64,000 nt of DNA. Origin: Branchiostoma lanceolatum. Taxonomy: Eukaryota > Chordata > Leptocardii > Amphioxiformes > Branchiostomatidae. The notes below the pieces were generated by a model that saw only the letters and a list, made by a program, of their open reading frames with translations, was not told the DNA's origin and did no database searches. Made by a program: the position numbers and the translations under genes. The DNA lies in assembly GCF_035083965.1 (NCBI RefSeq), contig NC_089723.1, positions 33,297,193 through 33,361,192 of the forward strand. Direction: 5' to 3'. Positions within the stretch are counted from its first letter, which is position 1. Each line of letters opens with the position of its first letter. Below are positions 19,594 to 57,371 of this stretch, one piece after another.

Positions 19594-19666
19594 GGAAAGT
19601 AACCACCTGTTGAGATGTCCCACTTATCTAAGGTGTCTTATCTGATGGTCGCTTGACGTATAAATA
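19594..19666 (+). promoter_or_regulatory. Promoter of trypsin gene T1
   Basis: GGAAA-GTAAC-CACCTG lies at 19594-19609, CTTATCTGATGGT at 19637-19649 and the TATA box TATAAATA at 19659-19666. Read on the other strand, the first element is CAGGTG-N5-TTTCC, like the E-box/TC-box pair bound by PTF1. TTATCT is a GATA-factor core. Start codon at 19730. Confidence 0.8.
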
Positions 19667-19729
19667 CACCAGTCTCTGTCTGGAGACGCCTGCTCTCATT
19701 TGAGCTCTGTCAGCCGACTGAAACTCACC

Positions 19730-22700
19730 ATGCGCTTTTTCGTCTTCCTCGCACTTGTCTCTTACGCTGGTAGGTAGCATTTTGTCCTTTCGCCGGTGTA
19801 CCACTGACACTGTCAATAACCTTTCCCCGAATTTTATGAATTTCAAAATTGCCAGAGAGTTGAGCGCCTGACAATGTACCCTATCACATTAGATAGGGTA
19901 CGATGACCTGTGAGCATCGGCATATCCCTAAAAATTGTGCAGCAATAAAGAAGACATTGACCGGGCTGCAGCCAAAAATGTACATCAGGCATTAGACTTG
20001 TTAGGCGACTCATTTTTTTGCTGTGTGACGCCGGCATTCGGATAGAAGATTTTATGTTTAAGGCCCTGCCATATGGTGTCTAGCAAGACATGTATGCAAC
20101 TTACCTTGGTAATTCTTAATTTGTACTAATTGCTACTAGTTTTCCAAAAGAAAAGTAGTTGATTGATTGAAAACAGAAAAAAATGAACCGTTTGTACATT
20201 TTCTACACGGTCAGAGATGGTCATGAAATTTCTGTATCAAGATGATTTTTTAGATCTTTCAATGCAATCATCACATTTGAGCCATATATGACAGTAACAT
20301 TTCTTATTGAACTAATGAATTGAAATGACTTCTGCTCAGTCAGATTGACAGCGATAAAAAAGGTCGTAAACGAAGAAACCTTAAGATTTAGACACTAGCT
20401 CAATACCTAGCTATGTACAAACTTAAAGATAGAAGATGACAAAATGTTTGTGGCAGTTTTAAAAGCTGAATATCTACTGCACATAAGTGCATGATTCAAG
20501 CTCCTTGATTATGCTTGTTGAGTTGAAAATTCCTTCTCTCCAGCGGCGCAGGGTTATGAAGACCGCATTGTCGGCGGGTCGGAGGCGACCCCAGGTGCCT
20601 TCCCGTGGCAGGTGTCTCTGCAACAGAACGGCTATCACTTCTGTGGCGGCACGCTCCTCAACAGCCAATGGGTTCTCAGCGCCGCTCACTGCCAAATGAG
20701 GTACTGAAGGTCGTTATAACACTTTTTTCCTGTGTATTTCTCACATGTAGTCCATGTTGATTCAATTGTATGGATGACATCCTGACCTCTGGGAACCCCG
20801 AAACTAACCGTTCGAGTGTGAATAAGAAAGAAAAAAAGTTTGCCTTCAGTATGAAAAGTTGTCAGGAAGGTTGAACATATGACTAAACACACAGAGTATG
20901 TGTGTATGGCATACTAAACAATAGATTCTTCATTTTGTTCTTTTACATCTTCTTCTTTGACTTTGGAATTGACTTTGAGAATTCTACAACATGTGTTGAA
21001 TGTTCGTTTACGGAATATGTTGCTGTCGACAGTGCCAGTAGCATGACTGTAGTTGCCGGAGATCACGACTTGAGCAGAAACGAGGGCACTGAACAGAGTC
21101 GTCAGGTACAACAGGTCATACCACACCCAAGTAAGCGTATATTGCACATCCTTACTATTATAAGAAAGAAGTTGTGAAGTAATATGTCCTGTGGTTCATG
21201 AAGATGCAAACAGGGCACATTTAGATTATTTTGCAATTAACATGTTCTCAACTGAAAACAAATTCAATGATACAATATGTGCAGTTTGCATACATTGTAT
21301 GCAGACTCAAACTGAGTGCATTCTGCACATACTGAGTGCATTCTGTGCATACTGTGTGTATTCTTGTGTGTATTCTGCACATAATCATATGATAATGTGT
21401 GCTTTCTCTTTGTGCTTCTGCAACATTTGTAAGGTAGTTACTCGCATTGCTAATTCCCTCCCACGGGTAAATTTCTTAACCCGTGTTATGATGTTCAGGG
21501 AGCGGAATATGATTTTTCATATACGTCTATATCTAAGAAAAAACATGCAGAAATTTAAAGGTGGCTGTCTTGTCTTGTCTTGTACCTAGGTAGTCTGTTA
21601 AAACTTGAGAGCATCGTTTCTTTTCTTATCGTCGGCACTCAATATCGATACCACAAGGTTTTATGTTCAGCGACGATGTAAACTATTTGATGCTTTACTT
21701 GTTGATGTATAAACATCATGAGCATGAGTGTTGTGTTCACTGCTGATCTCCTTATCTAGACTACAACGACAACACCCTTAACAACGACATCATGCTCATC
21801 AAGCTCAGCTCTCCCGTCACTCTGAACTCCCGGGTCAGCCCGGCGTCCCTGCCATCCTCCATGGTTGCCGACGGGACCATGGTCACCGTAACGGGCTGGG
21901 GAAACACCCGTGCCAGTGGATGTAAGTACCCGTATCTTATGGACTCACCTTTGCTTAGGAAGATAAGTGCAGCCATTGTAGTACAGTTTCCTGTAGTGCC
22001 GCTGTATCCTCCTAGAAAATGTTTAACGGCACCAAGGGGAAATCCTGTAAATGGACTTAATTTCGTGTGAACTTAATTTCACGTTTGGGTTGAGGCAAAG
22101 ATTTTTCGCGGTTCAAACAATTGTGTTGATACACCTGTTTTGTCCTCCCTTCCACTTGTTTTTCCATGTGGTAAATTCAAATAAAGAAATAAAGAAATAA
22201 AGAAATAAAGAAATAAAGAAATTGTGCGAAGTTGTGCAACGTGCTCTGAGCTCTCGGTGGATAGGTCACTGCGATGATTAACATGCAGTGAACGTAAAAT
22301 CATCGCGACTGTATATCTACCGCTTAACGGTATCCCAAGCACACCGTGGCTTACCTAGTAGCTTATCGCTGACAGATCTATCTAGGTATGGTGCCAAGGG
22401 GCGTCATCGTTCAGTGTGGCTATGTACTGGTTGCTGTTCATTGTCGTTGCTTTTTCTGTGTAATCGTTGCCAGACAGTGTGTGGACATGTATGAATGCTG
22501 TGAACTATGATTGTTTTGCTGTAAGTGGTGATATGTGTGACATTACAGTTCATTCCTTTCCCCCTGATCAAACTTCCAGCTAACTACCCGGATAGGCTGC
22601 AAAAGGTCGATGTGCCCGTCGTCTCCCGATCCACCTGCAATGCTGCTAACGCTTACGGCGGAGAGGTCACGGCCAAAATGTTCTGTGCCGGCTACATGGA

Positions 22701-23219
22701 TGGCGGCAAGGACTCCTGCCAGGTAACGCAATTCTGTTGTAGAAAACTTTAGCTTGTATCTAAGAAACAATGTTTGTCCCTTTCTGTGACGTCTCTGTCT
22801 CCAGGTTATGACATAAGATGATACAATGATACGTGACAGTGAACATCGCACATCCCCAAATATCGTAAGCTAGCGGATGGAGATAAATAATTCCAATTTT
22901 ATAGGATGTTAGAATACATAAACTGCCCATGTCACATACAGATGCTTGAAGTATCAAAGAGGAAAATTTGATATTCAAATTTGTACTAGATTTGTCAGAC
23001 TTTTGTTAACCTGTGTAAAGTCCTTAACAGACATCGATCGACTAACGAACATGTTTGATGCTGATGTTTGTGTAGGGAGACAGCGGCGGTCCCGTGGTGA
23101 GATCCGGTACGGTCTACGGCGTAGTGAGCTGGGGCTACGGTTGTGCCCAGCGTAACTACCCGGGTGTCTACGCCAAGGTGAACAGATTCACCAGCTGGAT
23201 CAACGGTTACATCAATTAA
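19730..23219 (+). CDS. Trypsin-like serine protease T1 (trypsinogen), 6 exons, 247 aa
   Basis: Exons: 19730-19769, 20544-20700, 21033-21130, 21760-21921, 22580-22722, 23076-23219. A signal peptide ([13 protein letters not shown]) and a short activation peptide ending YEDR precede IVGG at residue 22. The catalytic triad is His62 (SAAHC), Asp108 (NNDIMLIKL) and Ser203 (GDSGGP). Asp197, Gly in SWGYGC and Gly in YPGVY correspond to 189, 216 and 226 of chymotrypsin numbering, giving trypsin specificity for Arg/Lys. Cysteines fit the 42-58, 168-182 and 191-220 disulfides; Cys1/122 and Cys136/201 are absent. The loop [13 protein letters not shown] keeps acids of the calcium site. It is expected to be a secreted digestive enzyme. 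AATAAA at 23290-23295. First of seven tandem copies; exon phases 1,2,1,1,0. Confidence 0.95.
19791..20037. repeat. MITE in intron 1 of T1 (shared by T1-T5)
   Basis: It lies about 20 nt after the exon 1 donor, from a GACACTGTCAATAACC-type end to a GCTGTGTGACG end. Equivalent sequence sits at the same place in T2 (about 24717), T3 (29342-29592), T4 (about 34157-35240, interrupted by later insertions) and T5 (about 43143). It was therefore present before those duplications. Confidence 0.6.
22178..22221. repeat. (AAATAAAG)-type microsatellite
   Basis: Tandem AAATAAAG units in T1 intron 4. Confidence 0.85.
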
Positions 23220-23295
23220 ATCAGCTGTACATGTGTCGACATGAGATCTGCAACTTTGCAACAATGTGCTGATCTACAACTCAGTGCAGAATAAA

Positions 23296-24490
23296 AGTGT
23301 AGTTATCATCACGTGTCTTGTTAGAATTTTTTCTTACGACCCCCTGCCAATGATTCATGGCAATAAATCATGTTGAACGAATTGGTTTGCAAGCAGTTGA
23401 TTTCGTAGGCCTGAGGAGGCTATCGCTACCCAATTGTTATAGTGAAAGCCACATACTACAGTATGCGATGTAGCGGTGCAAGTAGTTTTCCTCAATAATT
23501 ATGTAAAATAGGTCATGATTTGCATGATGTGCATCTCATTGTATTAATCATCAGTTAAAGTACGTGTATGTTTTTGTACACGCCAAAAACAATGAAAATC
23601 CACCAATCCCTGCTTAAGTTATCTTCCTCCAAAAATACCAATTAAGAGACCCACTGCAGTTCCGAACAAGTCGCTAGGGGGTCCAAACTTACAACACTCC
23701 CTGCTCCTCAACCGCCTAAAAATCATGACCAAAGCGCTTCCAGAACCAACTTTGAAGTTCTGCTGCAGTGCTGTCTTAAGCCGCTAGGAGACCCATTATC
23801 GAACTTGACCTTCGTTTTCCTGACCTCTACACCTACCAAATACCATGAGATCCACCCATAGCTTATCGAGTTATGCTGTCTGCAGTCAATCACACATGCA
23901 TACAAGTTCCGCTGACGTATGGTAAAAAGCCACCAAGAGACCCATTCTTAAAATCGACCTTACAATTACCGACACCTACCCACCTAACAAATATCATTGA
24001 CATTCATCCACAGCTTCTCGTCCGTTTCCACACCCAGTCTACCATAGCAAAACCGAAAAGATAACCTTCTGGCAAAGGTAACTAGAGGTATCCAGAGGCC
24101 TTGGCCATAGTGAGAAAAAACAAATCAACATTTTGATTTGCAAACGCTGCATATCATATCCATGTATCACAACAATAGTTACCATCATCACACGTCATAA
24201 CCATGAAACAAAATAGAAAATTCCTGGTTTGGTATACCACGTTCTGTATGTGCAGTCATTTGTAAAGCTTCATCGATCATTTAGATTTCGAAATGAAGGC
24301 AACTTTTTTGGGAAGCCTAACTTTTTGGCGCACACTCCCATCAATGTCAGGGGGCCCAAAGGATGTCATCCGAATCGCCTCCGCCAAGGTCTGTAGGGGT
24401 CAATAGTTATCACAGTTACAAAATTTCTTAATCTTTGAATGCTCGTTGCAACGGTTTAACACTAACCCTTATCTTCCAAGGCTGGTCGAT
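23296..24490. other. T1-T2 intergenic region, repeat-rich
   Basis: No gene. From about 23460 to 24420 it carries a block that recurs between T2-T3 (28380-29040) and T3-T4 (33010-33870), with words such as AATCCACCAATCCCTGCTTA, GACCCACTGCAGTTCC and GATTTCGAAATGAAGGCAAC. It is part of the tandem duplication unit and probably derives from an old interspersed repeat. Confidence 0.6.
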
Positions 24491-24496
24491 AACTCT

Positions 24497-24569
24497 GGAA
24501 AGTCACCACCTGTTCAGACGACTGACGCACCTAGGGTATCTTATCTGATGGTTACTGTACGTATAAATA
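24497..24569 (+). promoter_or_regulatory. Promoter of trypsin gene T2
   Basis: GGAAA-GTCAC-CACCTG at 24497-24512, CTTATCTGATGGT from 24540 and TATAAATA at 24562-24569. Spacing from E-box to TATA is the same as in T1 and T3. Start codon at 24655. Confidence 0.82.
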
Positions 24570-24654: not shown

Positions 24655-27600
24655 ATGCGCTGTTTTGTCTTCCTCGTTCTTGTCTCTTACGCTGGTAGGT
24701 AGCATTTTGTTCTTAATCCGGTCACATTGTCAACGACAGCTGTCCGAATTCGTTGATCGCCGGGAGGTTGCCGAATGTAGGAAAGGAAAATGACCTCGAT
24801 CCAGTTTTAGCTATTCTTCTACTGGTTGTGACAGAGAAGACAGGCACTATGTACAGTATTTACCGGTTCATCGGTTCATTATACCAAGGAAATTCTCCTA
24901 GCTCTTTTCGACAAGCACGATGAGAAGTGGACCATGGCTTAACGTCCCGTCGTAATGCCCCCGTCACAAATGAAAAAATCAGCTCGGCCGACGTTGGGCA
25001 TTTTCGGTCGATTACGCGGGCTTAGGTCGACGTTCGCGGGTCACTGGAAGCTGGGCTTAAAGGCATAGGCATAACAACCCCAGAAACGGGTGTTATTTGT
25101 AAAATACCACATCTTTATGAATGAAAGGTCATGACAGTTCCTTGACAATACTCGTTGAGTTCAAAAGTCTTAATTTTTTGTCCAGCGGCTCAGGGCTACG
25201 GAGACCGCATTGTCGGCGGGTCGCAGGCGTCCGCAGGTGAATTCCCCTATCAGGCGTCTCTGCAACAGCACGGCAACCATTTCTGCGGCGGCACGCTCCT
25301 CAACAGTGAATGGGTTCTCAGCGCCGCTCACTGCCAAGTCAGGTATTGCAGGATTTACCACTTTCTGGAATATTTCTCCTTGTTTGGCAAACGATACTTA
25401 CCGTGCGGATGCACGTCTTTAGCTATTAGCTATCATTGGCCCGAAAGAGTTGCATTCTACAGATAGCAATTATTTCTACAATGTATGAAACTTCTGAACA
25501 TCCCAAAACCTTCAATATTTCATAAAAAATTGTGCTTTATTTCAAACTAAACACACATATATATATGTTGTATTGTATTGAATAGAATGGTACCATGTGA
25601 ACCTCACTCTATCTAACAATGAATAAAGTTACCGTTGTCTGGTAATCCGTGTACCATGGTGAGAGGCTTGTGCACAGCAACCCACATGATGAGACGTATT
25701 GAACACGCGTGGTATCAGTTACTCACTCAACTGGATATATTTTGAAAACGGTCAGATGTTTCAGGTAACATTAGTATCCACCACCTTTCTTCAGTGACTG
25801 AGAAAGGTAGTGGATGCTGCAGACCGTTTCTCCCGTCTATCCAGTTGCTTGAGTAACTGTTACCTAGCGTATCGTTCCACCTGGATGTCTGACCTTCATC
25901 GACGACTCGTTAAATGTTTGTTTAAGGAATATGTTGCGTAACTGTTGTCGACAGTGCTAACAGCCTGACTGTAGTTCTCGGAGAGCATGACTTGAGCAGG
26001 AACGAGGGGCATGAACAGACTGTCCAGGCACAACAGGTCATAGTACATCCAAGTAAGCGTATATTTAACATCATTCAATACTGATGAGTAATGTGTCTTT
26101 CGGTTATTGAATACGCACACGTGTTATTTGGCCAATAGGACACATTCGGATCATATTACCATTGTGCTGTTTATAATTATAACAATAATGGTTTATTGGT
26201 CAGACATTACCCGTACAATGGCAGCCAGTGCTGAATTGCTGCAGGTTTTAGAATCACATAATACACAACAAATACATATTTGCTCCACACTTGCACATTA
26301 TGAAACTGTCGCAAGGGTCTGGGCGGCCATTCGACGCCAGCAGATGAACTCAATACGACCTTACCCAACCGAAGTCAGGTACCCATTCACACCTGGGTGG
26401 AGTGAGGAAAGTCGTGTAAAGTGCCTTTCCCAAGGACACAACATCGGGCATATCGGGGTTTCGAACCCGGCACCTCTCGGTACTGGTCGAAACACCCTAC
26501 CGATTACGCCACATGATGCCACGGTTTGGTGTTATATCCAAACAGCATGATTGACCGCACCATGTTTCTAAAAAAATCATCCTTGCTGTCAAATAGTGAT
26601 ATTCCAATCTCTGTACAAACATCTGATCTCATTGTCTAGACTACAACGACAACACCCTCAACAACGACATCATGCTCATCAAACTCCAACATCCCGTCAA
26701 TATCAACAACTGGGTCAGCCCGGCGTCCGTGCCATCCTCCATGGTGTCCCCCGGGACCATGCTCACAGTTACCGGCTGGGGAAACACTCTTTCCAGCGGA
26801 TGTAAGTTCTCTACACACTATGGACTACTTTGTCTGTTTTGCTGTAGGTGTTATGTGTGACATTACCATTCACTTCTTTCAATTTCTCCAAAAATCATTC
26901 CGAAAGCGAGACAGAATTACCAATACATGACTATATTGTGACCCATATACTGGTCTCGATGATATTTTGTACTTAGAATTGTAGGATAGATTAGCCTTAT
27001 AGTATTGTTGATTTAATGCCATACATTGTACCATGTACGATTGTGGAGCAATTAAGTTCATTAATTCATATAATGGACAACACTTCTTTCTTTTTGTGCA
27101 ACTTCCAGCTAACTACCCGGACAGGCTGCAGAAGGTCGATGTGCCCAAAATCGCCCGAGCCGAGTGTAACGCTGCCAATGCCTACGACGGCGAGATAACC
27201 ACCAAGATGTTCTGTGCTGGCTACATGGATGGCGGCAGGGACTCCTGCCAGGTAACGCAATTCTTCAGGCTGTTAGCACTGTCGACAACAATTACGCAAC
27301 ATATTCCTGAAAGAAAACTATTTACCAAACTATGTTTGTTCCACCGTGAATAGTTTCATCATGTTGGTGAATGACTGAATAAAAAAGTTCTTTAGTACCA
27401 TCAAGGAAATGACGCTTCGACGACAATATGTCATCTTCTTCAGGGAAATAATAACTGCGTCACTTTGTACTGCAGCTAGGTGTCGCTGCTGACAATGCGG
27501 TCCCAAGCGTGAATATTGTCACATTCATCGATCAAAGCCTCTTAACAATATCTATGCATGTGACAATACTTTTGAGACCGCATTGTTAGCAGTGAAACAT

Positions 27601-28152
27601 AGCTGCAGTGCAAAATGAAGCAGTCATTATTTCATTGAAGATGATGTCAGATGGGCATCGAAACGTCGGCTGTTATCATTTCGTTGGTGGTGAATAAAGA
27701 ACTTTGTTATTATGTTTGTTCCACTTTGATGTCTCCGGGTTGATCAACTGATGTCATGGCGACCACATGATTTGATACAATGACGCAGTGAATTGAATTG
27801 ACTTTGCATCTAAAATCATACATCGTTAAATATTGTCTGCTAACGGATGGAGATAAAGAATTTCAATTTTTATGATGCCCAAAAACATGCAATACCCGTA
27901 GAGGTAAATTTTGAAAAAAAGTATGATAGATATGATAGATTTGTCAAACTTTTGTTATCTGTCTAAAATCCTTAACGAACATGATTCAATGCTGATGTTT
28001 GTGTGTAGGGAGACAGCGGCGGTCCCGTGGTGAGATCCGGCACGGTGTACGGCGTAGTGAGCTGGGGCTACGGTTGTGCCGAGCGTAACTTCCCGGGCGT
28101 CTACACCCAGGTGAACAGATTCGAAAGCTGGATCAACGGTTACATCAACTAA
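24655..28152 (+). CDS. Trypsin-like serine protease T2, 6 exons, 247 aa
   Basis: Exons: 24655-24694, 25186-25342, 25955-26052, 26640-26801, 27109-27251, 28009-28152. Signal peptide [13 protein letters not shown]; the activation peptide ends YGDR before IVGG. Triad: His62 (SAAHC), Asp108 (NNDIMLIKL), Ser203 (GDSGGP). Asp197 (189 equivalent), SWGYGC and FPGVY predict trypsin specificity. It differs from T1 in having Tyr for Trp after EFP (FPYQASL) and in surface loops. Expected to be secreted and digestive. AATAAA at 28173-28178. Intron 3 holds a SINE (26305-26523) and intron 5 a foldback repeat (27379-27712). Confidence 0.95.
25716..25875. repeat. Foldback repeat in T2 intron 2
   Basis: An inverted pair, GTTACTCACTCAACTGGATA on the left and TATCCAGTTGCTTGAGTAAC on the right, encloses an inner inverted pair containing ACCACCTTTCTTCAGTGAC and GACTGAGAAAGGTAGTGG. 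A diverged copy lies in T4 intron 2 at about 37019-37150. Confidence 0.7.
26305..26523 (-). mobile_element. tRNA-derived SINE, type 2, minus strand
   Basis: On the minus strand it starts near 26523 with a tRNA-like part: GGCGTAATCGGTAGGGTG (A-box region) and GGGTTCGAAACCC (B box). Then comes GTGTCCTTGGGAAAGGCACT, a block shared with the plus-strand copy at 47152-47455. It is not a tRNA gene because the cloverleaf is not kept. Confidence 0.75.
27379..27712. repeat. Foldback repeat in T2 intron 5, also in T3, T4 and T6
   Basis: The left half (AAAGTTCTTTAGTACC, TGTCATCTTCTTCAGGGAAA, GCTAGGTGTCGCTGCTGACA) is the inverted complement of the right half (TGTTAGCAGTGAAACATAGC, GAAGATGATGTCAG, AATAAAGAACTTTG). 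Copies lie at 31940-32221 (T3 intron 5), 40970-41297 (T4 intron 5) and, in another intron, 51941-52170 (T6 intron 4). The right half carries ATCGAAACGTCGGC. Confidence 0.7.
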
Positions 28153-28178
28153 TGATCTGCAACTGAGCTCAGAATAAA

Positions 28179-29110
28179 AGCGTGATCATAATCACATGTC
28201 TTATTAGCATTTTTCGTACTTTCTTCCGATCCCCTACCAATGATTCACAGCAGTGAATCATGTTGGATTTTTTGGTTTGTTAGCATTTGATTTCGTTGTC
28301 ACATGATCAGGAGGCCATGATAAGCTTGTGCCTCATCATATGGTTATCATGATTTTCTTTTTATCTTAGCTTTACTGTCGTGTCAGTCATTCAAATTTGT
28401 ATGATTCATATCTATCGATACCCCTTTCTTTCTCGGTGACGTATGCCGCATACTTGAAAGTCCTGTAGTGTAATGCAGCAGATTTAGAAAATCTAATTAA
28501 CTAATTTAGCTCTTCTTTTGAATAGTTAGCATCTCAATATGTCAATTGCAATGATCAGTTTCACTTAAGACAAACTCAAGCCTAAGGTACCTACATGCCA
28601 ATATCAATGAAAATCCATCAATCCCTGTTTGAGTTATTCTCCTTCAAATTTACTAGCAAGAAGACCCACTACAGTTCCAGACAAGCCGGTATACGTAAGG
28701 GACCCAAACTCACACCACTTACTCCTTGCCACAAGAGCCATCCACACAGTACGGTAGAAGTGGCTGGGAGGTCCATTCCGACACGATCGAAGTCTTCTAA
28801 AATCAAAGAAGAAGATGTGAGAAATAATAACAGATAATTCATTATTTGGCATACCACGTTCTGTATGTTCAGTCATTTGTAAAACCTTCTTGATTACTTA
28901 GATTTCATAATGAAGGCAACTTTTGTTTGGCCCAATTTTTTTTCGCACGCTTGCATCAATCTTATGGTGCCCATAGGATGCCATCCGAATCACCCCCGCC
29001 AAGATCTGTAGGGGTCAATAGTTACCACAGTTACAACATATCTTCATCTTTAAATACTCAACGGTTTAACCTTCTGCCTGACCCTTATATTGAAAGGCTG
29101 GTCGATAACT
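28179..29110. other. T2-T3 intergenic region, repeat-rich
   Basis: No gene. Contains the same tandem-unit repeat block as the T1-T2 spacer (about 28380-29040) leading into the T3 promoter. Confidence 0.6.
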
Positions 29111-29112
29111 CT

Positions 29113-29185
29113 GGAAAGTCACCACCTGTTCAGACGACTGACGCACCTAGGGTATCTTATCTGATGGTTACTTGGAGTATATAAA
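29113..29185 (+). promoter_or_regulatory. Promoter of trypsin gene T3
   Basis: GGAAA-GTCAC-CACCTG at 29113-29128, CTTATCTGATGGT at 29156-29168 and TATATAAA at 29178-29185. The geometry is the same as in T1 and T2, so the gene is probably still transcribed although its product lacks the catalytic His. Confidence 0.82.
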
Positions 29186-29278: not shown

Positions 29279-32200
29279 ATGCGCTGTTTGGTCTTCCTCG
29301 CTCTTGTCTCCTACGCTGGTAGGTAGTATTCTATTGTTTAGTCGGTCACACTGTCAACGACCGCCGCCCGAACTTGTTGATCGCCTGAGGCTGCCGAATT
29401 TCAAAATTGCCAGAGAGTCGAGCGTATTTTTCGCCTGAATATTTACCCTATCACATTGGACGGTGTTCGGCGGCAGACCCCTGAATATCGAATAAAGATC
29501 GAGAGGAGACCGGCCGTGTTGCTGCTGAAAATGTCCACAAGAGCTCACAGAGTCGTCAGGCGAGTGATTTCATGCATACTGTGTGACGTTGCGTTACGAG
29601 ATAAGATTTTACTCAAACCATATAGTGTCAATGTAAGGTGCATCCAGCTCCTACACACAACTTTATTGGGTTGCTTATTCTTAATGTTACCAGAAGAATA
29701 TCACTATTAGTTAAGAAATAGCTGATTGGCAGAAAAAAAACGATGTTACGTTAGTATATTCTGTACACGGGTATAGAGATGATCATGAAATTTGTTTGTC
29801 AAGATGATTTGTAAACAATATTTCAACGTTAATCATCTCGAATGGGCCGTATATGGCAGCAACATATTTTGAAGAACTAATAGTAATGTAAAATGTTTCT
29901 GTTCGGTCAGATTGACAGTGCTAATGCAAACGGAAACGACCAAACCTTACTCTAGACACTAGCTCAGTAGCCAGCTATAAACAAAAAAATGAGATGAAAG
30001 ATGTTCGTTTCTGTTTTGAAAACCTGAGTAACTGTTGCTCGAGTACATTGTAGTTCCCTGATTATTCTCGTTGAGTTGAAGAGTCTTTTTGTCCAGCGGC
30101 TCAGGGCTATGGAGACCGCATTGTGGGCGGTTCGGAAGCGATTCCAGGTGAATTCCCATGGCACGTGTCTCTGCAAGGGTCCGGCCGCTATTTCTGTGGC
30201 GGCACGCTCCTCAACAGCCAATGGGTTCTCAGCGCCGCTCAATGTGAAGTCAGGTATTGCAGGATTTATCACATTCCTGTCTATTTCGTCGAGTTAGGCA
30301 AATAATTCTTACTGTGTGGTTGCACGTCTTAAGTTGTAACTTAACAATGTTCCGAAAGTTAAGCAGAGCTACATTCTACAGATAGCAAGTATTACTACAA
30401 TGTATGAAACTTTTGAACGTCAATTTTCATACGGAACATGTTGTGTAACTGTTGTTGACAGTGCTAACAGCATGACTGTAGTTGCCGGAGATCACGACTT
30501 GAGCAGAAACGAGGGGCACGAACAGAGTCGTAGCGTACAACAGGTCATACCCCACCCTGGTAAGCGTATCAAATACAAATTAAGGTACAAACTCTACAAA
30601 CACTATAGTTAAAGTTAAAATCCTCCCACACCATAATTGATGTATAGGGCGGTGCCCATCTCCGTTTCATAGCCCTGGGGCCACACTGTGGTGCAATCAC
30701 TGCAGCAGGCGGCTAGTCCACTGGCAGTGGAGTGCGTTTAACTTCCATACCGTTTCATAAGTATGTACCATTTTTATAAAGTCTTTGGTATGACTCAATG
30801 CGCCTCTTGTCCAGAGGTGCCCTACCTGGGGCTTGAACCCCAGTCCTTCTGGTCCAAGTAATTTGAACCAGATGTGGCAGAGTAGCAAATGCGTAGACCA
30901 CTACACCACAGGGACACCCCTATACAATATACAATACTGTACAAACGGAAGATTGACAGACGCCTTATTTCTCGAAAAATCATCATCCCTGCTGTCAAAT
31001 AGTGAGCGAAAGAGTTTAGAACACAGACATACATGCACAGAGGACTGTCAAACCTCAAGCATTTTACTGCAGTGGTTTTGGTTGTGCTGCTGCAGCGTTA
31101 AAGTTAGTATGGCTGATTTCTATAACTGATTGGCTGATTGTTATGATATGGAATCGGAATATTGTTTTTATATATGCCTTTATCTGAGGAATAACATGGA
31201 GAAAAGGTGACAGTGTTGTCCTCTAGAGGGGATCTAGATGGTCTGAATATTTGGTAGCATTCATGCGTTTCTTATGTTCGGAGCATGTAATAATAGGTAT
31301 ATATCATAGATACGACACAAAGCGACAAGCCAACAAGTATTATATGTATTTCAAATTTGTTATCATTTTATAACGAGGTTTTATGTTCTGCGACGATGTA
31401 AACTGTTTGATGTTGTGATTGCTGATGTTATTATCTCTGTACAAACGTTTCTGATCTCATTGTCTATAGACGACGACATCATGCTCATCAAGCTCAGATC
31501 GCCCGTCACTCTCAACTCCCGGGTCAGCCCGGCGTCCCTGCCGTCCTCCATGGTTTCACCCGGGACCATTGTCACCGTCACGGGCTGGGGAAAAACTCAT
31601 GAAAACGGATGTAAGTTCTCTACAGACTATGGACTACTATGATTATTTTGCTGTATGTCCTCATATGTGACATTAGCATTGACACATTTTTATGCAACTT
31701 ATATAGATAACCTCCCGGACAAGCTGCAAAAGGTCGATGTGCCCACCATCTCCCGATCCGCCTGTAACGCCCCCAATGTTTACGACGGCATGGTCAGTGC
31801 CAATGAGTTCTGTGCCGGCTACATGGATGGCGGCAAGGACTCCTGCCAGGTAAACGCAATTCTGTTGCAGAAAACTATCTACCAATGCAAACTATGTTTA
31901 TTCTTCCGTAAATAGTTTCATCTGGTTGATGAAGGACTGAACAACAAAGCTCTTTATTCACAACCGACTTGTAGGGAAATGATAACTGATGCATTTTGTA
32001 CTGCAGCTAGATGTCACTGCTAACAGTGGTCTCAAAAGTATTGTCACATACATAGATATCGTTAAGCAACAAAACTTCTTAACAATATTTGTCTATGGGA
32101 CAGTACCTTTGGGACCTCATTGTTAGCTACAGTGCAAAATGAACCAGCCATTATTGCCCTATTATGTTCATCGAAACTTTGGATGTTATCATCATTACAT

Positions 32201-32704: not shown

Positions 32705-33930
32705 GCGTAATCATAGTAACATGTCTTGTTAGCATTTCTCTTACTTTCTTGTGACCACGCAGGCTTGGGCAATGCATCACGTTGGATTTATTGGTTTGCC
32801 AGTGGTTGATTTCGTTGGACTGAGGAGGCCATGATAAGCTCGTGCCTCATCATATTAGCATGATGATTATATCTTACATAACTTTCCTGTCGTGTAACTA
32901 AAACAGTTAGCAACTAGAGTTCCACGACCTCATACCTTCGCCAAATGTATTACCCTTAACGATGCAAGTATTAAATCCTCGTAATTTACCAATATGGTCT
33001 TATAGTATTTTCTCATCAATCATTCAAATGTGCATGTGTATTCAAATATTTGTCAATATTCCTCTCTTTCTTTAATAGTGACAGATGCCAGATGTATAAA
33101 AGTCATATAGTGTAATGCAGCATTTATAAAGTTTCACCAATTGTGCAAATTAGCTCTTTTTTTTGCATATTTAGCATCTTCATATGTCAATCATCAAGTT
33201 CACTTAAGCTATCTGATAACCAAACAGAAATGAAAGCAGAGATCTGTTTTTCAATTGCCCAACTAGAAATGCCGGCTGTATTTTGGCCTATTTACCTAGA
33301 ATCCAGGACGCCAATTGTAATAGTGAAAGCTACATGCTACCGTATGCGTTCAGCAGTGCTACAAGTTTTCCTCAATAATTCTGTAAAATAGGTCATGATT
33401 TGCATAATGTGCATCTCATTATGTTAGTCGTCAGCTGATGTAAAAATGCCAAACACAGTGAAAATCAATCGATCCCTGCTTAACATGATATAGCATCCTC
33501 CTCCAAAAAATACCAACAAAGAGGCCCACTGCAGTTCCGAACAACCGCTTGGGACCCCAAACTTACACCACTCACTCCCGGCTCCTTACCTCTCCAAAAT
33601 ATATTTCTAGCCCTGAGTGAAGTCTTCCAAAGTCAAAGAGGAAGATGTGAAATAAGAAATAGGTAATTTATTTTTTTAGCATATCACGTTCTGTATGTTC
33701 AGTCGTTTATAAAGCTGAGCTTCTTGATCACTTAGATTTCGAAATGAATGCAACTTTTGTTAGGCCCAACTTTTTTTTTCGCACAATCGCATCAATTTCA
33801 GGGAGCCCATAGGATGTCACCCGAATCACCTCCTCTAAGATCTATAGGGGTCAATAGTTACCACAGTTGCAACATTTCTTTGAAATGGCTTAACACTAAC
33901 CCTTATCTTCAAAGGCTGGTCGATAACTCT
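32705..33930. other. T3-T4 intergenic region, repeat-rich
   Basis: No gene. It carries the tandem-unit repeat block (about 33010-33870) and a segment near 32920-32960 (GTTCCACGACCTCATACCTTC) whose inverse occurs at about 39890-39920 in T4 intron 4. Confidence 0.6.
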
Positions 33931-34008
33931 GGAAAGTCACCACCTGTTCAGACGACTGACGAACCTATGTTATCTGATGGTTACTTGTAGTATATATATA
34001 TATATATT
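33931..34008 (+). promoter_or_regulatory. Promoter of trypsin gene T4
   Basis: GGAAA-GTCAC-CACCTG at 33931-33946, GTTATCTGATGGT at 33969-33981 and a long TATA run (33991-34007). E-box to TATA is 5 bp shorter than in T1-T3. Confidence 0.8.
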
Positions 34009-34095: not shown

Positions 34096-41500
<7,405 letters not shown>

Positions 41501-41549: not shown

Positions 41550-42865
41550 GTTGAATCACAATTACATGTCTTGGTTTTACTTACCTTTCTTACGACCCCA
41601 TCTTTGTTCGATTAATAAGATAGATTATCGATGAACCCCCCTAGTAATTTCATAGAATTGATAGATGGATTGATTGATTTAAAGAATTATTAGACTGATA
41701 AATAAATCTAGTAAGGAATTGAGGAACCAATTAAGTGAATTGATAACTCTAATAAAGATGATGCAATAGATTAGTAAACTATTGAATCTATTTGATTGCA
41801 TTGATAAATTATCATAAATTCTTTAATGAACAAATGAATGAGTTACCAAAATAAATTTATAACCTGAATTAGTGATCGAATTATGAAATGAAATAATAGA
41901 TAATCGATAAGTTTACAAAGTTAATTAATGGATCAATAAAATGAACGAATAAATCAACAAACGAATGCGTCTTTCTCACACACACATACACACACAAACA
42001 CTACGCAAAACATAACTTTATGATTTACTTTTGACAGACATTTAATCATTACACACAACGTAAAAAAGATTGCTCTGGGGAGCTTTCGAGACGAACTCTC
42101 TGTCTCTTCGTCAACCCGGTATTACTTTATGATTAATTAAGATACTTAATAGGTAATTAAGATACGACCAGGACACTGGGTTTTTGATTCAGTAATACTG
42201 GTGCATCCAGAGGTATCGCAGGTTCTGTAAAGTGCAGAAGGCGGTGCTCTCCTCAAATAGCCTTGTATCGATAATTAGCCTCAGTTGCAGGCTTTCCCAC
42301 CAGCGATTTTTCAAGTTGTCTGGTCCAGGTTCTTTGGCTGGGGGGCCGTATCTGCTTGGGGTCCTGTGACGACAACTTGAAAAATCGCTGGTGGGAAAGC
42401 CTTCAACGGAGGCTAGCTATAGGTATCTATTCCCATTATAGCCGCCGAGTCTCTTTCGTCTCTTTCGTCCTCACCTCAACGAAACAGCAGCTGTAGTAGG
42501 GATGGATACCAGCGGCTACTCCTCAAACGCGACAGATGATTCAAGTGACGTAACGAAGAAGAATGGCTCGTTTCGACGCGATGTAATTTTGTGCATGTCT
42601 CTTATTTCACTGTAGAACATTAACAACTGTCAGGGTGGCGATTCATTTTTTTCTTACGTAATGCAGTTTGATGTTACCATAAGCTCGCGGAAGGAGAAAA
42701 ATTGTAGCAAATTTGTTCTAAAACCTGCGCTATAAATACCGTACAAGGTACACAAGGGAAAGAAGCACCTCCGCCTAGAAGGTCTGTAGAGGTCAATATT
42801 TATCACAGTTACAACATGTCTTCATCTTTTAAATGCTCTTTGCAACGGTTTAACGATGCCCTTGA
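41550..42865. other. T4-T5 intergenic region
   Basis: No gene. AT-rich tract with ATTGAT/AATGAA words (41600-41970), the dispersed 100-bp repeat at 42028-42126, a MITE at 42290-42401, and a proximal block (42677-42810) shared with the regions before T1 and T6. Confidence 0.6.
42290..42401. mobile_element. 112-bp MITE with 31-bp perfect inverted ends
   Basis: It begins GGCTTTCCCACCAGCGATTT and ends with the exact inverse over about 31 bp. The flanks TTGCA and TTCAA may be a diverged duplication. Confidence 0.82.
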
Positions 42866-42877
42866 AATGCTAATTGT

Positions 42878-42963
42878 GGAAGGTTACATGTACCGCCTGT
42901 TTAGGCGTCCTTCACTCTTATAATTAGACTACCTTATCTGATGGTTACTGCATGTATATATAC
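42878..42963 (+). promoter_or_regulatory. Promoter of trypsin gene T5 (E-box degenerate)
   Basis: CTTATCTGATGGT at 42933-42945 and TATATATA from 42955 are kept at the usual 22-bp spacing. The upstream element is GGAAG then CGCCTG with an 11-bp gap, so the CACCTG core is lost and the spacing is changed. Confidence 0.7.
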
Positions 42964-43052: not shown

Positions 43053-46000
43053 ATGCGCTGTTTCGTCTTCCTCGCTCTTGTCTCTTACGCCGGTAGGTAC
43101 CATTTGTTTCAACTCAGTTCAATTCAATTTCACTTTGTCTTTTAGCCGGTGTGACATCGTCAACGACCTTCGACCAGCTTTAGTAATGGCCAGAAGGTCG
43201 CCGAATTTCAAAATCGCCAGAGAGTGGAGCGTATTTTTCACCTGAAAATTTAGCCCATCACACTTGACGTGATCAGTGAAAACATAAGGCTAGCCAATGT
43301 CCTTGATTATATCCGTTGAGTTGAACCTTCCTTCCCTCCAGCGGCTCAGGAATACGGAGACCGTATTGTCGGCGGGTCGGAGGCGACCCCAGGTGCCTTC
43401 CCCTGGCAGGTGTCTCTGCAACAGCACCACGACCATTTCTGTGGCGGCACGCTCCTCAACAGCCAATGGGTTCTCAGCGCTGCTCACTGCCAAATGAAGT
43501 ACTGCAGGATTTAACACTTTCTTTCTTGCGTATTTGTCACACACAGTTATTGTTACCGTACGGTTGCTCGTCCTCAGCTATCACTTAGTTTTTACCAAAC
43601 TAACTGCGCTGGCTGTAGGGAGAATGATATTGCCAGGGAAGTTTGGCCACCATAAGGTTTCATTGGGCAAGTGCAGTCAGAGAGGAGGCGGACTGACCCT
43701 CCTGGCTAAGTTTTCCCCGAATGCTACGATCCATACCCCCGTAGAAAGGCTGGTGGAGGCTAGCCACCACCCTTGACTGTTCCGAAAGTCAAGCATTGGC
43801 ATTCTTTAGATAGCACCCAACGTTACAATGGTGAATTAGATTTTTTAACGTCTTAAAAACAACATAATTTCACCAAACATTTCTGCCTTATCTTCAACTA
43901 AATACATACAGGTATCATTCAAACCTCATGATAATAGTGAACAGAGTTACAGCTGTAGCTATAGTGTAATCGTTGTACCAAATAAAAAGCCTGTGCACAA
44001 TGAAAATAGTCATTTTTTCACCCACATATGTAACATGTTTTGAATGTCCGTTTACGGAATATGTTGTACTATTACTACTATCCACAGCGCTCACAGCATA
44101 ACTGCAGTTGTCGGAGATCACGACTTGAGCAGAAACGAGGGCACCGAACAGAGTGTCCACGGATCACAGATCATTGTGCATCCAAGTAAGCGTATATTTT
44201 GCATCATTCTTACATTATATGCGTGTCCTGTGGTCATTGAAGACGCACAGCTGTCATTTAGTCAACAGACACATTGAGATCATTTACCATTGTGCTGTTT
44301 AGTGTTACGTCCTTTGGCCAGTCGCAGACTGACAGTCAGCATATATCTCGAAAAAAATCATTCCTGTTGTCAAATATTGGGGGAAAGACTTCAGAACACA
44401 ATCATATATGCACAGAGGACAGCCAACTCAATCATTAAAAGATAATGACCTCACACTATGTAACGAGTTTATGGTCGGCGACGACGCAAACGATCTTATG
44501 CCGTGATTGTTGGTGTTCTAATATCGGTATAAACACGAGAGATGTGTTAATCTATGATTTCCTTGTCTAGACTACAACGACAACACCCTTAACAACGACA
44601 TCATGCTCATCAAGCTCCAACATCCCGTCAATCTCAACTCCCGGGTCCGTGCGGCGTCTCTGCCGTCCTCCATGGTTGCCGACGGGACCACGGTCACCGT
44701 CACGGGCTGGGGAAACACTCTTGCCGACGGCTGTAAGTAACAGAATCTCGAGGGCTGTTGAATTGGCGTATATCAAGTCAGTATGAGTTCCGTATTGGCA
44801 GTTTTTGCCTTGGATAAAGTTTGCGGCCGAAGAAGTCGTTTTTTTCTCGGTTCGATAACCCGAGACTGGGCGGCGGTGATTCAACGTTAAAAAATACCCC
44901 CCACAATCTTTGCCTGAACAAAAATAAAAATGTCAATCCGGAACTCATACAAACTTGATATGAACACAAGTGTGACCCCCCTCCCTTGGGCCCTGTCACA
45001 CTTCTGCACACTTCTGCGTATATCAAGTCCGTATGAGTTCCGTTTTAATTGTTTTTAGTACGCAGCCCCACGCTACAAATTCCACTGTGTCTGTTCCGTT
45101 GTACTTCATTACTTATTTATCTATTAATCTTTAGGGCGGTCCCTTCAGTTAACTATGTAACTGATTTCCAAGGGAGCCCTTATATTACATGACAGATACG
45201 TATGTATGACATAACCATTAATGTCCTTTCCTGATCCACCTTCCAGCTAACTACCCGGACAGGCTGCAAAAGGTCGATGTGCCCGTCGTCTCCCGATCCA
45301 CTTGTAATGCCCCCAACTCTTACGATGGCGAGATAACCGCCAACATGTTCTGTGCCGGCTACATGAGTGGCGGCAAGGACTCCTGCCAGGTAACTCCATT
45401 CTGTTGTGGGAAAATATTTTTGTTTTTCACGTCTCCGGATTACTATATAGTTATGACTAGGGGTGGGTACCGGTACAAACAATTCAGGTCCGGTCCAGGT
45501 CCAGGTCCAGAGGGTCAGGTCCAGGTCTGGACCTGTACCTGTACCTGATTATAGTAGTGTCGCAGTACATCATATTTTGGAGAGCGAGACACACGCAAAA
45601 GTCTCCAAACGTCATGTCTGGAACGATATAATTTTTGAGGTTTGCACTTTGTCTCAAAATTATAATTATACTCTTCTCGCCGTCTGTTTACTAATCCTTT
45701 AAGTGTTTCTAGGTATGATTCACAGCTAACGTCTTCGAAAACGAAGTTAAATCTGCTGTTTTGTATTTTCTTAGACCAGTTATGTGGCCGCCTGGTACTA
45801 TGAATTTTCTAATCGGTCCATAGGCCGGTCCACTGATTTTATACGGACCGTTTTTTTTGGACCGGTCCATTAAGAAATACCGGTTTTGTACCGGTACACG
45901 GTACCGGTACCCACCCCTAGTTATGACGTATTTGCATGTTGCATCTCGAAGGCAAATATCGTCAGCTACTGGATGGAGATAAAGACTTTCCTTCTATGGG

Positions 46001-46594
46001 TCGATAGACATGAAATTGGCATGTATAATGGGTCACCAAAAAGGTAGGCCCCTCTCACACATTCTGTACCGTCCTACAACTTTGCTCCCGGCTGCTCTCC
46101 AAAAAGGTCAGCGGTGGGTTAGGTCTAGCCTAGAATCCATCCTTATCTAGCTGTAGTTCGTTCTTCCGATCAAAACCAAACTGACTAAGAATTTCCGACT
46201 GAAATTCATTGACGACCGGCGCATGCGCGCAAACGACGTTCTAAAAATATTGCTACAGGTGACATTTCTCACGACTAGCTCCCAACCATGGTTTGAGGAA
46301 GGTTGGGAGAGGTCGGCAGTCCATGGTCGGCCCTGATGTGAACATTTAAATACAAGTTTACACTTAAGTTGTAAAACTTTTATCACCTGCGTTAATTCCT
46401 TGTCAAACATCGCCTAATGTACAGGATTTGATGCCGATGTTTGTGTGTAGGGAGACAGCGGCGGTCCCGTGGTGAGATCCGGCACGGTGTACGGCGTGGT
46501 GAGCTGGGGCTACGGCTGTGCCCAGGAGAACCTCCCGGGTGTCTACACCAAGGTCTCCAATTACGTCAACTGGATCAACGGTCACATCAATTGA
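43053..46594 (+). CDS. Trypsin-like serine protease T5, 6 exons, 247 aa
   Basis: Exons: 43053-43092, 43342-43498, 44088-44185, 44571-44732, 45247-45389, 46451-46594. Signal peptide [13 protein letters not shown]; the activation peptide ends EYGDR before IVGG. Triad: His62, Asp108, Ser203 (GDSGGP). Asp197 (189 equivalent), SWGYGC and LPGVY give trypsin specificity. Exon 2 ends in AA before GTACTG rather than AG, changing the split codon to Asn and weakening the donor. AATAAA at 46644-46649. Intron 5 holds a hAT-type MITE (45458-45919). Expected to be a secreted digestive enzyme; most like T1. Confidence 0.94.
44764..45040. repeat. Inverted-repeat element in T5 intron 4
   Basis: GCGTATATCAAGTCAGTATG near 44765 is inverted near 44940-44965 (GGAACTCATACAAACTTGAT) and repeated directly near 45016. 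The centre has CGGTTCGATAACCCGAG. Related words occur before T7 exon 2 (about 58800-58930). Confidence 0.5.
45458..45919. mobile_element. hAT-type MITE with GTTATGAC 8-bp target duplication
   Basis: The ends TAGGGGTGGGTACCGGTAC and its inverse are perfect. GTTATGAC flanks both sides (45450-45457 and 45920-45927). Just inside lies a short tandem of GGTCCA/AGGTCC units. No coding frame of note. Confidence 0.88.
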
Positions 46595-48700: not shown

Positions 48701-48918
48701 CGACACAAATGGCACAATATAATAGAAAAAATCACCTCCGCCAAAGGTACGATAGATATTTAAACATTATCTATACGACCTTAAATTGCTGTGATATCTT
48801 AGAATAAACGTATCAAACTTATGTGAGATTCTATGATAAACATAGAAGCAGCATAGAAGCGACTTGTTGCCTTCAACCACTTATCTTCAAACGCATATAT
48901 GTTGATCGATAATCGTGA

Positions 48919-48956
48919 GGAAAATGACCACCTGTATAACTGTCTTATCTGATGGT
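48919..48956 (+). promoter_or_regulatory. Promoter of trypsin gene T6 (no TATA box)
   Basis: GGAAA-ATGAC-CACCTG at 48919-48934 and CTTATCTGATGGT at 48944-48956. At the usual TATA position (48966) the sequence is TAGATGAT, so the TATA box is lost or very weak. The gap between E-box and GATA motif is shorter than in T1-T3. Confidence 0.72.
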
Positions 48957-49048: not shown

Positions 49049-53279
<4,231 letters not shown>

Positions 53280-53441: not shown

Positions 53442-53474
53442 ATTTGTTTGTTTGTTTGTTTGTTTGTTTGTTTG
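53442..53474. repeat. (TTTG)n microsatellite
   Basis: About eight TTTG units downstream of T6. Confidence 0.88.
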
Positions 53475-54527: not shown

Positions 54528-54735
54528 CTATAAATGCAGAAATGTTCGCGGTGGATTATGCTCACGGTTTTCGAGGTGAACTCTTTACCGCGAACTTAAA
54601 ACCACGGCGAAATGCCGTTCAAGTGTTTGACTTTAGCGCTACTATTGTTTAAAACACAAACTCAAAACCACCGCGAACACTCCATTTTCTCCCTACCGCG
54701 AAATTAAATCCCCGCGAACATTTCTGCATTTACAG
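54528..54735. mobile_element. TA-target MITE, copy 1
   Basis: The left end CTATAAATGCAGAAATGTTC and right end GAACATTTCTGCATTTACAG are inverted repeats continuing into GCGG, flanked by TA (54526-54527, 54736-54737). The interior has ACCGCGAAC words. The second copy is at 62253-62459. Confidence 0.85.
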
Positions 54736-57321
54736 TACACTGTGCCATTCGTTTTTGATCCGCTCGATAACGTTCTTGAGACGCAACAAAGAATCGGCGA
54801 TCATCGATTGTAGCCCGGATTGTAGCCATTGAATTGTTTATCTATTATCTTCGTAAAGGAGGTTCACCTCCGTCGGGGGTTCTAGTATTGCAATCGCATG
54901 GGTTTATGTGTTAGTAGCTATAACTCCAATCCCTTTTGATGCATTTATATTTTCGCATGTCAGCACTTAGTGAGGTCCCGATGATGCCTGTCGATTTTGG
55001 GCAGCCTAGAAGTATTCTAGGTATTGTAAAATTATAAAACGTCACCCCCATCTTGATCTCAGCCCCCATTGAAACATCTGTTAGTCACCTAATTGTAGCT
55101 ATAGCCGTATGTATCTATAGCATGCACATAGATGTGTTTTATTAGTTTTGATCGAAGAGTTGCATTCAGCCTGTGAACACTGTACAATTACATGTCACCA
55201 ACGAGTCAGCAATCATTGTTTGTGTGGATGTGATGTTTAACCGTCTCCCTGCTGCCTAACTCTTTAACCAATAGAGAATGGGGTGCCAAACGGCTACTTC
55301 AGTGTGCTAAAAGTAGGTGGTTTTAAACCATGCCTTTAAGGCATTTTCCAACCAAAACTCGTATAGTTCCATTCATGTGGTTTGCAGATCCAAATTAATT
55401 GTGTTATGAAGTGGTGAGAACGTGAGTACATTTAGTTGAGTCCGTAGTTGGCTCCAGGATAGGCTGTGAGTTTCCAGTTTTTGTAACATGATTCGGTATC
55501 TAACGTTATCTATATCATGCGCCTGTCCTTACACCCATGGTCAAGTTGATTAACACGGAAAAAGCAACGTTATTTGACAAGGTTTCTGATTAACTTTTGG
55601 CATCGATTCTATAAACAAGGCCCCATCTCACTGGACCCGCAACAGTGCGGCCTCGCTGCGTCCTAAATTGAATTTGTGTTACCCTTGACTTTATGATGGG
55701 AATATCATCACAACCGTATGACTAAAAAGACAGCTAAACACACAAAACGTAAAATGATTAGTTTTTTTTACCGATGGAATTCATTTAGCGCTCTGTCAAA
55801 TCGCCTGGTCGCAGCGAGGTCGCCAACATGCTGCGGGTCCAGTGAGATCTTTTCTCCGATTCTTGGAGTCAACGACTTAACTGGGCGAGATATCAGTTTG
55901 AACGCTACAAGGACACATAACGTCCTTCAGTGCCCTTCCACACACCCTGATGTCCTTGATATATAAATAGACGAGAAAGGCACCAGGAGGTGTTATTTTT
56001 ATGGTAAAGGACAGGGCAAAGAGCGGCATACTATAGTCTGTTGCCCTGTCACTTGGCATGACCTGGCGCTGACATGTATCGGGAGCATGTGTCAACACTT
56101 CTATTGAGGCTTGCACTGTGATTCTTATCGTGACAACAGGGTGTGTCACAGAAGGAAACGCACTCTAAGAATAATCTTAACCCATCTAACATCCCGGCCA
56201 TCCATGTTAAATGCATAGTTGAATGTATCCAACAGACAGCACGACTGTCTAGATGGTATAGTACTTGAAGACGATAGATTAATTCACTCATACATGGCGG
56301 TACTTCTTATCTTGTGGCGAGTTCTTTATCGTGCCAGAGCTCTTCACAAACAGACACACAAACAAACAAATGGCAACGAAAACATAACCTTCTTGACGAA
56401 GGTAATAAAAAGTTGATCGTAACGACCCTCAAACACCATTGTGTGGCAACCATTCAACGGACTCAGGGACACCGTAACGGGTACCATCAATGTACAAGAA
56501 ACATCATTCTATAGTTCATCAATATACTAATACTTGTACAATGTATAGCTGTTGAATTACAATATGATGAAAATACCAGTGCCCTGGTGATCTTAAGTTT
56601 TGCATTGTTAAACTGTATCTGTTGCCGAAATCTGCAAGAAAAGAGAATCCCTGTCTATCTAATTTGTTCAGGACCATAATTTGAAACACAACATTTTCAA
56701 TTCTTCCAGGCTTGACCTGCTTACTGACCTGCGTCATTGCCGATTGCCATGTGACTATGACGTATTCTTAACCCTTCCATGTTGGTTGGTCGGTCAAGGA
56801 CGCGAGCCAAGGACGCCTCTACTTCAGCATGCTTAGAAATTCAGCGATGACTATGCTGTTGAGGAGGGATGTTGAAAATTGTGTTGAAAAGATGGTGTGA
56901 TATAGATATAAACGTTTTTCAGTGCTGTTTTGTTTTGTTTCCTAACTCGCTGCTGTTCCCGAATCTAGCTAGATTGTAAAAGTTCCCAGTCACAGTGAGT
57001 CAGCCCTATAAGTATAACGTGTTTGATTGTACATTTTTAGGTTTACACATGTACATAGCAAATTTGTTCTGTATATATTTAGCGTACAGACCAACGCACA
57101 TCCGCCAGCAAGGCCGTGAGCCATTAGTTATCACAATTCTAAAGATATTTTTTTGGGGGGTTTTAATACTTTTGTAATTGTCTTACTACAATGCGTACAG
57201 CTTTGAATCCGATCTATCAAAAATTTACCCAAATTGATATGAGGTTCTAGAATAGAGCAGGATATGCCTTTTTTTACTAACGCTTATCATTATCATCAAA
57301 CGTACCAATTTAGCACGTGAG

Positions 57322-57371
57322 TGAGAAAGTGCCACCTGTTGTTGAAATTGCACCTTATACTAATAAACGGG
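57322..57371 (+). promoter_or_regulatory. Promoter of trypsin gene T7 (diverged)
   Basis: GAGAAAGTG-CCACCTGT lies at 57323-57339. The next motif is CTTATACTAATAAA (57354-57367), so the GATA core is altered and merged with an A/T-rich TATA-like stretch. The whole promoter is about 40 bp more compact than T1. Confidence 0.55.

Follow-up and report, generated by a model that had tools for sequence, protein, structure and literature searches.

A conserved proximal promoter module with GATA sites and a candidate PTF1-like pair in a tandem trypsin array of amphioxus

We analysed a stretch of 64,000 nucleotides from the amphioxus Branchiostoma lanceolatum (contig NC_089723.1 of assembly GCF_035083965.1, positions 33,297,193 to 33,361,192, forward strand; hereinafter the 64-kb window), which in our gene models contains seven complete tandem trypsin genes, T1 to T7, all on the plus strand and of six exons each, with GT/AG borders at all 5 introns of every model. 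Our subject is the short promoter module upstream of these genes, made up of a GGAAA box paired with a CACCTG E-box, a GATA-containing block (TTATCTGATGG) and a TATA element. An earlier reading of the letters alone (the sequence-only reading) had likened it to the site of the vertebrate pancreatic factor PTF1 combined with a GATA site. The genes are as follows:

19730..23219, + strand: T1, trypsin gene, 6 exons, 247 amino acids (aa), protein identical to B. lanceolatum 'trypsin-like' (P0001)
24655..28152, + strand: T2, trypsin gene, 6 exons, 247 aa
29279..32649, + strand: T3, trypsin-family gene, 6 exons, 240 aa, SAAQC in place of SAAHC
34096..41500, + strand: T4, trypsin-family gene, 6 exons, 257 aa, GESGGP in place of GDSGGP
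43053..46594, + strand: T5, trypsin gene, 6 exons, 247 aa
49049..53279, + strand: T6, trypsin gene, 6 exons, 252 aa, 97.6% to B. lanceolatum PRSS2 (P0014)
57419..63342, + strand: T7, trypsin gene, 6 exons, 270 aa, 84% to B. floridae trypsin-3-like (P0009)

The T1 protein is 100% identical to the B. lanceolatum trypsin-like protein across 247 aa. Synonymous divergence is 0.25–0.39 among T1–T5, 0.43–0.52 between these and T6, and 0.57–0.68 between T7 and the other six. In a quick FastTree analysis of T1–T7 with 12 homologues, T6 clusters with a B. floridae protein (84%) and T7 with proteins of B. floridae (84%) and B. belcheri (82%); because they group with proteins of other species, at least the T6 and T7 paralogs probably predate the split of these Branchiostoma species.

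Judged from the sequence, a conserved proximal promoter module in this array is real and appears to have been kept while the adjacent non-coding DNA diverged. Its GGAAA/E-box pair, GGAAA-N5-CACCTG, has 5 exact matches on the two strands of the window, every one upstream of a trypsin gene, whereas 100 shuffles average 0.08 and never exceed 1. These are the five genes for which the sequence-only reading had reported it, and its description of the pair as shifted by one base in T7 and degenerate in T5 was likewise correct:

19594..19609, + strand: T1, GGAAA-N5-CACCTG, exact; minus strand CAGGTG-N5-TTTCC
24497..24512, + strand: T2, GGAAA-N5-CACCTG, exact
29113..29128, + strand: T3, GGAAA-N5-CACCTG, exact
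33931..33946, + strand: T4, GGAAA-N5-CACCTG, exact
42878..42899, + strand: T5, degenerate pair GGAAG-N11-CGCCTG, E-box lost
48919..48934, + strand: T6, GGAAA-N5-CACCTG, exact
57323..57338, + strand: T7, GAGAAA-N4-CACCTG, shifted by one, overlapping an RBPJ core GTGAGAA that starts at 57321

Exact copies of the block TTATCTGATGG number 6 in the window where 0.02 would be expected, and each precedes a trypsin gene. The sequence-only reading had placed it in T1–T5 and overlooked the T6 copy, which raises the count to 6/7; no proximal copy is present in the T7 promoter. The exact motifs are thus commoner than chance, one of the points on which that reading had staked its proposal. The copies are:

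19638..19648, + strand: T1, GATA block TTATCTGATGG, exact
24541..24551, + strand: T2, GATA block TTATCTGATGG, exact
29157..29167, + strand: T3, GATA block TTATCTGATGG, exact
33970..33980, + strand: T4, GATA block TTATCTGATGG, exact, E-box spacing 29 instead of 34
42934..42944, + strand: T5, GATA block TTATCTGATGG, exact
48945..48955, + strand: T6, GATA block TTATCTGATGG, exact, without a TATA 21 bp on

With up to 2 mismatches allowed, words like the pair number 27 against 17.2 expected, a mild excess that none of 100 shuffles reaches, and words like the block number 20 against 22.2, no enrichment; the signal of both motifs resides in the exact copies. The word CATCNGATAA occurs 6 times in the window against 0.51 expected, and all six are the GATA blocks. 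The putative TATA elements lie downstream:

19659..19664, + strand: T1, TATAAA, 21 bp from the GATA block, start to start
24562..24567, + strand: T2, TATAAA
29178..29183, + strand: T3, TATATA
33991..33996, + strand: T4, TATATA
42955..42960, + strand: T5, TATATA
57356..57367, + strand: T7, TATA-like TATACTAATAAA, 23 bp from the E-box, start to start

From the GATA block to TATA[AT]A the distance is 21 bp start to start in each of T1–T5; its constancy had been noted earlier at 22 bp, a figure that holds only when counted inclusively. T6 has no TATA 21 bp after its block, and the T7 TATA is shifted. The E-box lies 55 bp ahead of the TATA, start to start, in each of T1–T3, equal as had been claimed, and 50 bp ahead in T4. 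Different genes retain different parts of the module: T5 keeps the GATA block and TATA with an E-box that reads CGCCTG, T6 keeps both motifs with the TATA gone, and in T7, where TTATCTGATGG is gone, the E-box is retained with GAGAAA at N4, along with two upstream GATA sites.

Further GATA sites, absent from the sequence-only reading, lie upstream of and beside the pair:

19562..19567, + strand: T1, upstream GATA site CTTATC
24468..24473, + strand: T2, upstream GATA site CTTATC
33902..33907, + strand: T4, upstream GATA site CTTATC
48880..48885, + strand: T6, upstream GATA site CTTATC
57283..57295, + strand: T7, paired GATA sites CTTATC and TTATCA
19585..19589, + strand: T1, GATAA, 4 bp ahead of GGAAA
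24488..24492, + strand: T2, GATAA, 4 bp ahead of GGAAA
29104..29108, + strand: T3, GATAA, 4 bp ahead of GGAAA
33922..33926, + strand: T4, GATAA, 4 bp ahead of GGAAA
48908..48912, + strand: T6, GATAA, 6 bp ahead of GGAAA

GATAA thus stands exactly 4 bp ahead of GGAAA in T1–T4 and 6 bp ahead in T6. CTTATC is present in 7/7 promoters (250 bp each), in T4 and T7 as the upstream site and not the block, and is the sole 6-mer to reach 7/7 in any of 15 homologous non-coding sets (described below). With expectations taken from the window's own density, CTTATC/GATAAG occurs 11 times in 1,400 bp of promoter (7 × 200 bp) against 1.0 expected (naive P 4e-9, the paralogs not being independent), and WGATAR (consensus from PMC13236572) 14 times against 4.4 (naive P 1.6e-4, with the same dependence). 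The block, CATC-A-GATAA when read on the minus strand, extends past a GATA core and is kept whole, beyond what WGATAR alone covers; it may be a partly palindromic double GATA site engaging both zinc fingers. A distal GATA-type word, TTATCACA, is seen about 250–290 bp upstream of T2 (24407), T5 (42800) and T7 (57128), and TTACCACA in T3 and T4 is a form of it; the two together are a possible second conserved element. GATA input to these promoters is well supported by sequence and likely.

As a control we used 15 homologous sets of seven 250-bp non-coding stretches with the same phylogeny, namely the promoter set and 14 others cut at fixed offsets from both ends of each intron, three upstream blocks and the 3′ flank. 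In the promoter set, 12 8-mers are present in at least five of the seven genes: seven cover the GATA block, three fall on CCACCTGT, and the last two belong to the 5′ leader immediately ahead of the ATG. The other 14 sets have none. Six control sets reach into an exon, for 13–143 bp, in one gene with short introns (T3 or T5), and with exons masked there are still none in the 14 sets. The T2 and T3 promoters are identical over 79 bp (24478-24556 and 29094-29172), motifs and spacers alike, and T2/T4 and T3/T4 share 50 and 51 bp; the earlier statement that the surrounding sequence has diverged more than the motifs therefore holds across lineages and breaks down for T2/T3. Since the spacers shared by T2–T4 are, by eye, not common to T1, T5 and T6, these three promoters have probably been homogenised by gene conversion, leaving about five independent lineages, and we counted them once. 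With T2–T4 represented by one member at a time, the promoter set retains 6–7 8-mers in at least four of five lineages and the other 14 sets again none; this and the looser comparison at 3/5 lineages were made on unmasked sets.

Whether the pair could be a PTF1 site was considered element by element. As published, the site pairs CANNTG with TTTCCC at a centre-to-centre distance of one or two helical turns (PMC2586380). In six of the seven promoters (T1–T4, T6 and T7) the CANNTG element is CACCTG, and in T5 it is broken to CGCCTG. On the minus strand the pair reads CAGGTG-N5-TTTCC, and its TTTCC-type box (hereinafter the TC-box) lies 11 bp from the E-box centre to centre (N5) in T1–T4 and T6 and 10 bp (N4) in T7, with T5 outside this register. 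The TC-box is TTTCCA in T1–T4, TTTCCT in T6 and TTTCTC in T7, one mismatch from TTTCCC in each of these six and two in T5. Exactly at N5 from the E-box, 5/7 promoters have a TC-box with no more than one mismatch, versus 2/668 flanks of the other E-boxes in the window. Against the RBPJ consensus, which we take to be YGTGRGAA, T1, T6 and T7 have one mismatch and T5 has four; a word within one mismatch of it lies within 18 bp of the E-box in these 3/7 promoters (T1, T6 and T7), versus 10/668 background flanks, and the T7 promoter contains the RBPJ core GTGAGAA. In vertebrate PTF1 sites the order is generally E-box then TTTCC, and the inner E-box bases toward the TC-box are generally CC; here they are GG. 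Because CANNTG is self-complementary, the caveat about E-box orientation in the sequence-only reading touches these inner bases only, while order and one-turn spacing fit. PTF1 with RBPJ is described as tolerating variation in both sites (PMC8431614). The E-box and GGAAA are unlikely to be chance neighbours, yet the pair falls outside the strict PTF1 definition; its identity as a PTF1 site is suggestive and PTF1 input plausible. Of the original PTF1-plus-GATA interpretation, what stands is the conserved module and the GATA input, the PTF1 part being weakened to this suggestion by the lack of TTTCCC in all seven promoters, the two mismatches of T2–T4 to the RBPJ consensus and the loss of the E-box in T5.

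The only strict CANNTG-N4-6-TTTCCC match in the window (N5) is at 42282, 771 bp upstream of the T5 start codon. At first sight it could pass for a replacement site in the gene whose E-box is lost, an idea we set aside: simulation of 40 sequences gives 0.5 matches of this kind by chance, and the match falls within an arm of an inverted repeat. The repeat (42266-42425), upstream of T5, has 55-nt arms that are 89% complementary with 50 nt between them, and resembles a miniature inverted-repeat transposable element. Another inverted repeat, noticed by eye in T4 intron 1 (34187-34306), starts with TAGCCTGGAATCCAAACC and ends with its reverse complement; it is likely a small transposable element.

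We tentatively propose, at a little under an even chance, that the proximal module acts as a switch for digestive cells, with a GATA4/5/6-type factor and a PTF1-like basic helix-loop-helix (bHLH) complex bound to it. In this scheme the GATA factor would sit on the GATA block, some two helical turns away from the TATA complex, and a bHLH/E-protein dimer on the E-box and an RBPJ-type partner on the GGAAA box would be one helical turn apart, as in vertebrate acinar enzyme genes; the combined inputs would drive strong expression in the epithelium of the gut or its diverticulum. Different paralogs have eroded different parts (the E-box in T5, the TATA in T6, the GATA block in T7), as expected if the inputs are partly redundant.

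Several observations weigh against this proposal. An exact TTTCCC within 18 bp of the E-box is found in 0/7 promoters, as is an exact YGTGRGAA, from which T2–T4 differ at two positions. The distance from E-box to GATA block is 34, 34, 34, 29, 40 (T5, from the broken box) and 16 bp in T1–T6, and because it varies we rejected a fixed spacing of the whole module; what is fixed is GGAAA-CACCTG (5 genes) and GATA-TATA (T1–T5). Through their 50–79 identical bp T2–T4 amount to one lineage, so counted the exact pair is present in 3/5 lineages. At the looser bar of 3/5 lineages, with T3 as representative, the 5′ ends of intron 1 have nine 8-mers versus 13 in the promoter, and 42 gapped word pairs versus 17; only the stricter bars single out the promoter. 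Since T5 lacks the E-box and T7 the proximal GATA block, neither element is indispensable. CACCTG is, in addition, a site for Snail/ZEB repressors. Finally, it is a target of group A bHLH factors in general (PMC7693978).

The general binding of CACCTG by group A bHLH factors (PMC7693978) speaks for one alternative, that of a GATA-driven gut promoter in which some other factor of this group (e.g., Mist/Bhlha15 or an E-protein dimer) binds the E-box, GGAAA is the site of an unrelated factor and PTF1 with RBPJ is uninvolved. It accords with the GATA sites being the most conserved part (TTATCTGATGG in 6/7, CTTATC in 7/7), with a TC-box that is never TTTCCC and an RBPJ consensus that is never exact, and with mist lying in the same gut module as ptf1 (PMC12768270). 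It sits less well with the 5/7 genes whose TC-like box keeps exactly the PTF1 register, versus 2/668 other E-box flanks, and with an N5 spacing kept in T6 although the spacer letters there differ; overall we regard this alternative as a distinct possibility, at roughly one chance in three.

A repressive role for the E-box is far less probable. Here CAGGTG would be a Snail/ZEB-type site keeping the trypsins off outside the digestive compartment, with GATA alone activating. ACAGGTG does fit Snail/ZEB preferences, but the fixed GGAAA partner at N5 is left unexplained. Also in favour of this role, zeb2 marks the anterior 'block' gut compartment in bilaterians (PMC12768270). The remaining explanation dispenses with any special constraint and puts the similarity of the motifs down to recent shared descent of the tandem copies and gene conversion among them. 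In its favour, T2–T4 share 79, 50 and 51 identical bp despite a synonymous divergence of 0.25–0.33, and some intron sets rival the promoter at the loosest bar. T1, T5 and T6, however, keep TTATCTGATGG despite diverged spacers and flanks, and 0/14 control sets have an 8-mer in at least five of seven genes or at least four of five lineages, so that the control sets already disfavour this explanation, which we hold to be quite improbable.

T3 (exon 2, 30097-30253, and exon 4, 31470) encodes SAAQC where the other six genes have SAAHC, whose histidine we take to be the catalytic His57, and seven residues are missing ahead of the DIML motif; by its sequence T3 is probably a non-catalytic trypsin homologue with the promoter module still intact. 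T4 exons 5–6 (40411-41500) encode KSACVGESGGP where the others have [K/R]DSCQGDSGGP, changes that presumably hit the specificity-pocket aspartate and the aspartate beside the catalytic serine, and the activity of T4 is probably altered. Two adjacent open reading frames (2590-3777 and 4364-5467), ASB-like in combining ankyrin repeats with a SOCS box, lie upstream of the array, and exon-like translations at 10758-11723 by eye resemble a cyclophilin.

Like vertebrate PTF1 sites, the amphioxus module has trypsin-family targets, GATA sites nearby, and an E-box followed by TTTCC at 11 bp (T1–T4, T6) or TTTCTC at 10 bp (T7) centre to centre. Unlike them, it has a TC-box of TTTCCA, TTTCCT or TTTCTC and never TTTCCC, an inner GG toward that box in place of the vertebrate CC, a T5 promoter without an E-box, and in T1–T5 a GATA block at a set distance from the TATA. 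The minus-strand CATC-A-GATAA of 6/7 promoters resembles palindromic two-finger GATA sites in being conserved as a unit and differs in that its second half is GATG and not GATA. At palindromic sites the N-terminal finger is reported to stabilise binding; for the fly GATA N-finger the same source suggests no such benefit in vivo (PMC8844375). In mouse, Ptf1a, Nr5a2, Foxa2 and Gata4 co-occupy acinar regulatory DNA (PMC10553828). A comparison of adult gut segments of five bilaterians including B. floridae, made on bulk tissue and not single cells, describes a ptf1/hhex/mist module that overlaps a gata4/pdx1 digestive module except in the annelid and the clownfish (PMC12768270), and trypsin-like protease makes up 3.32% of expressed sequence tags from the B. 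belcheri diverticulum (PMC6015868).

A close parallel is the sea urchin, likewise an invertebrate deuterostome with predicted Ptf1a sites at digestive enzyme genes (PMC4880809, PMC9437490). There, Ptf1a activates a rat PTF1 element with mammalian partners (PMC4880809), and Gatae, Rbpj and trypsins are found in the same exocrine-like cells (PMC9437490). The two cases differ in that Ptf1a dependence was tried in the sea urchin by morpholino, with matrix-predicted sites at carboxypeptidase, lipase, amylase and fringe genes, sites that at the genes affected by the knockdown are described as untried in vivo (PMC4880809); the amphioxus case is one of sequence, a trypsin array and a comparison among paralogs. 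A pre-vertebrate digestive code is plausible and has already been proposed from the sea urchin (PMC4880809, PMC9437490), so that it is not new here. The stronger claim, that the amphioxus trypsin promoters carry a PTF1-plus-GATA acinar code inherited from a common deuterostome ancestor and older than the pancreas, we consider somewhat unlikely. On amphioxus trypsin promoters we found nothing in print in search listings, most subscription papers lying outside that search.

The wider question is whether vertebrates took over their acinar enzyme battery as a ready regulatory unit or assembled it anew in the pancreas. The sea urchin work contributes shared transcription factors and predicted sites (PMC4880809, PMC9437490); the amphioxus trypsin array would be a new cis-regulatory case, checkable by experiment: its promoter is short, its paralogs have lost single elements naturally, and in a cephalochordate the cis side would be directly open to reporter assay. 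If the claim of an inherited acinar code is true, the switch can be traced base by base through paralogs that each miss a different part.

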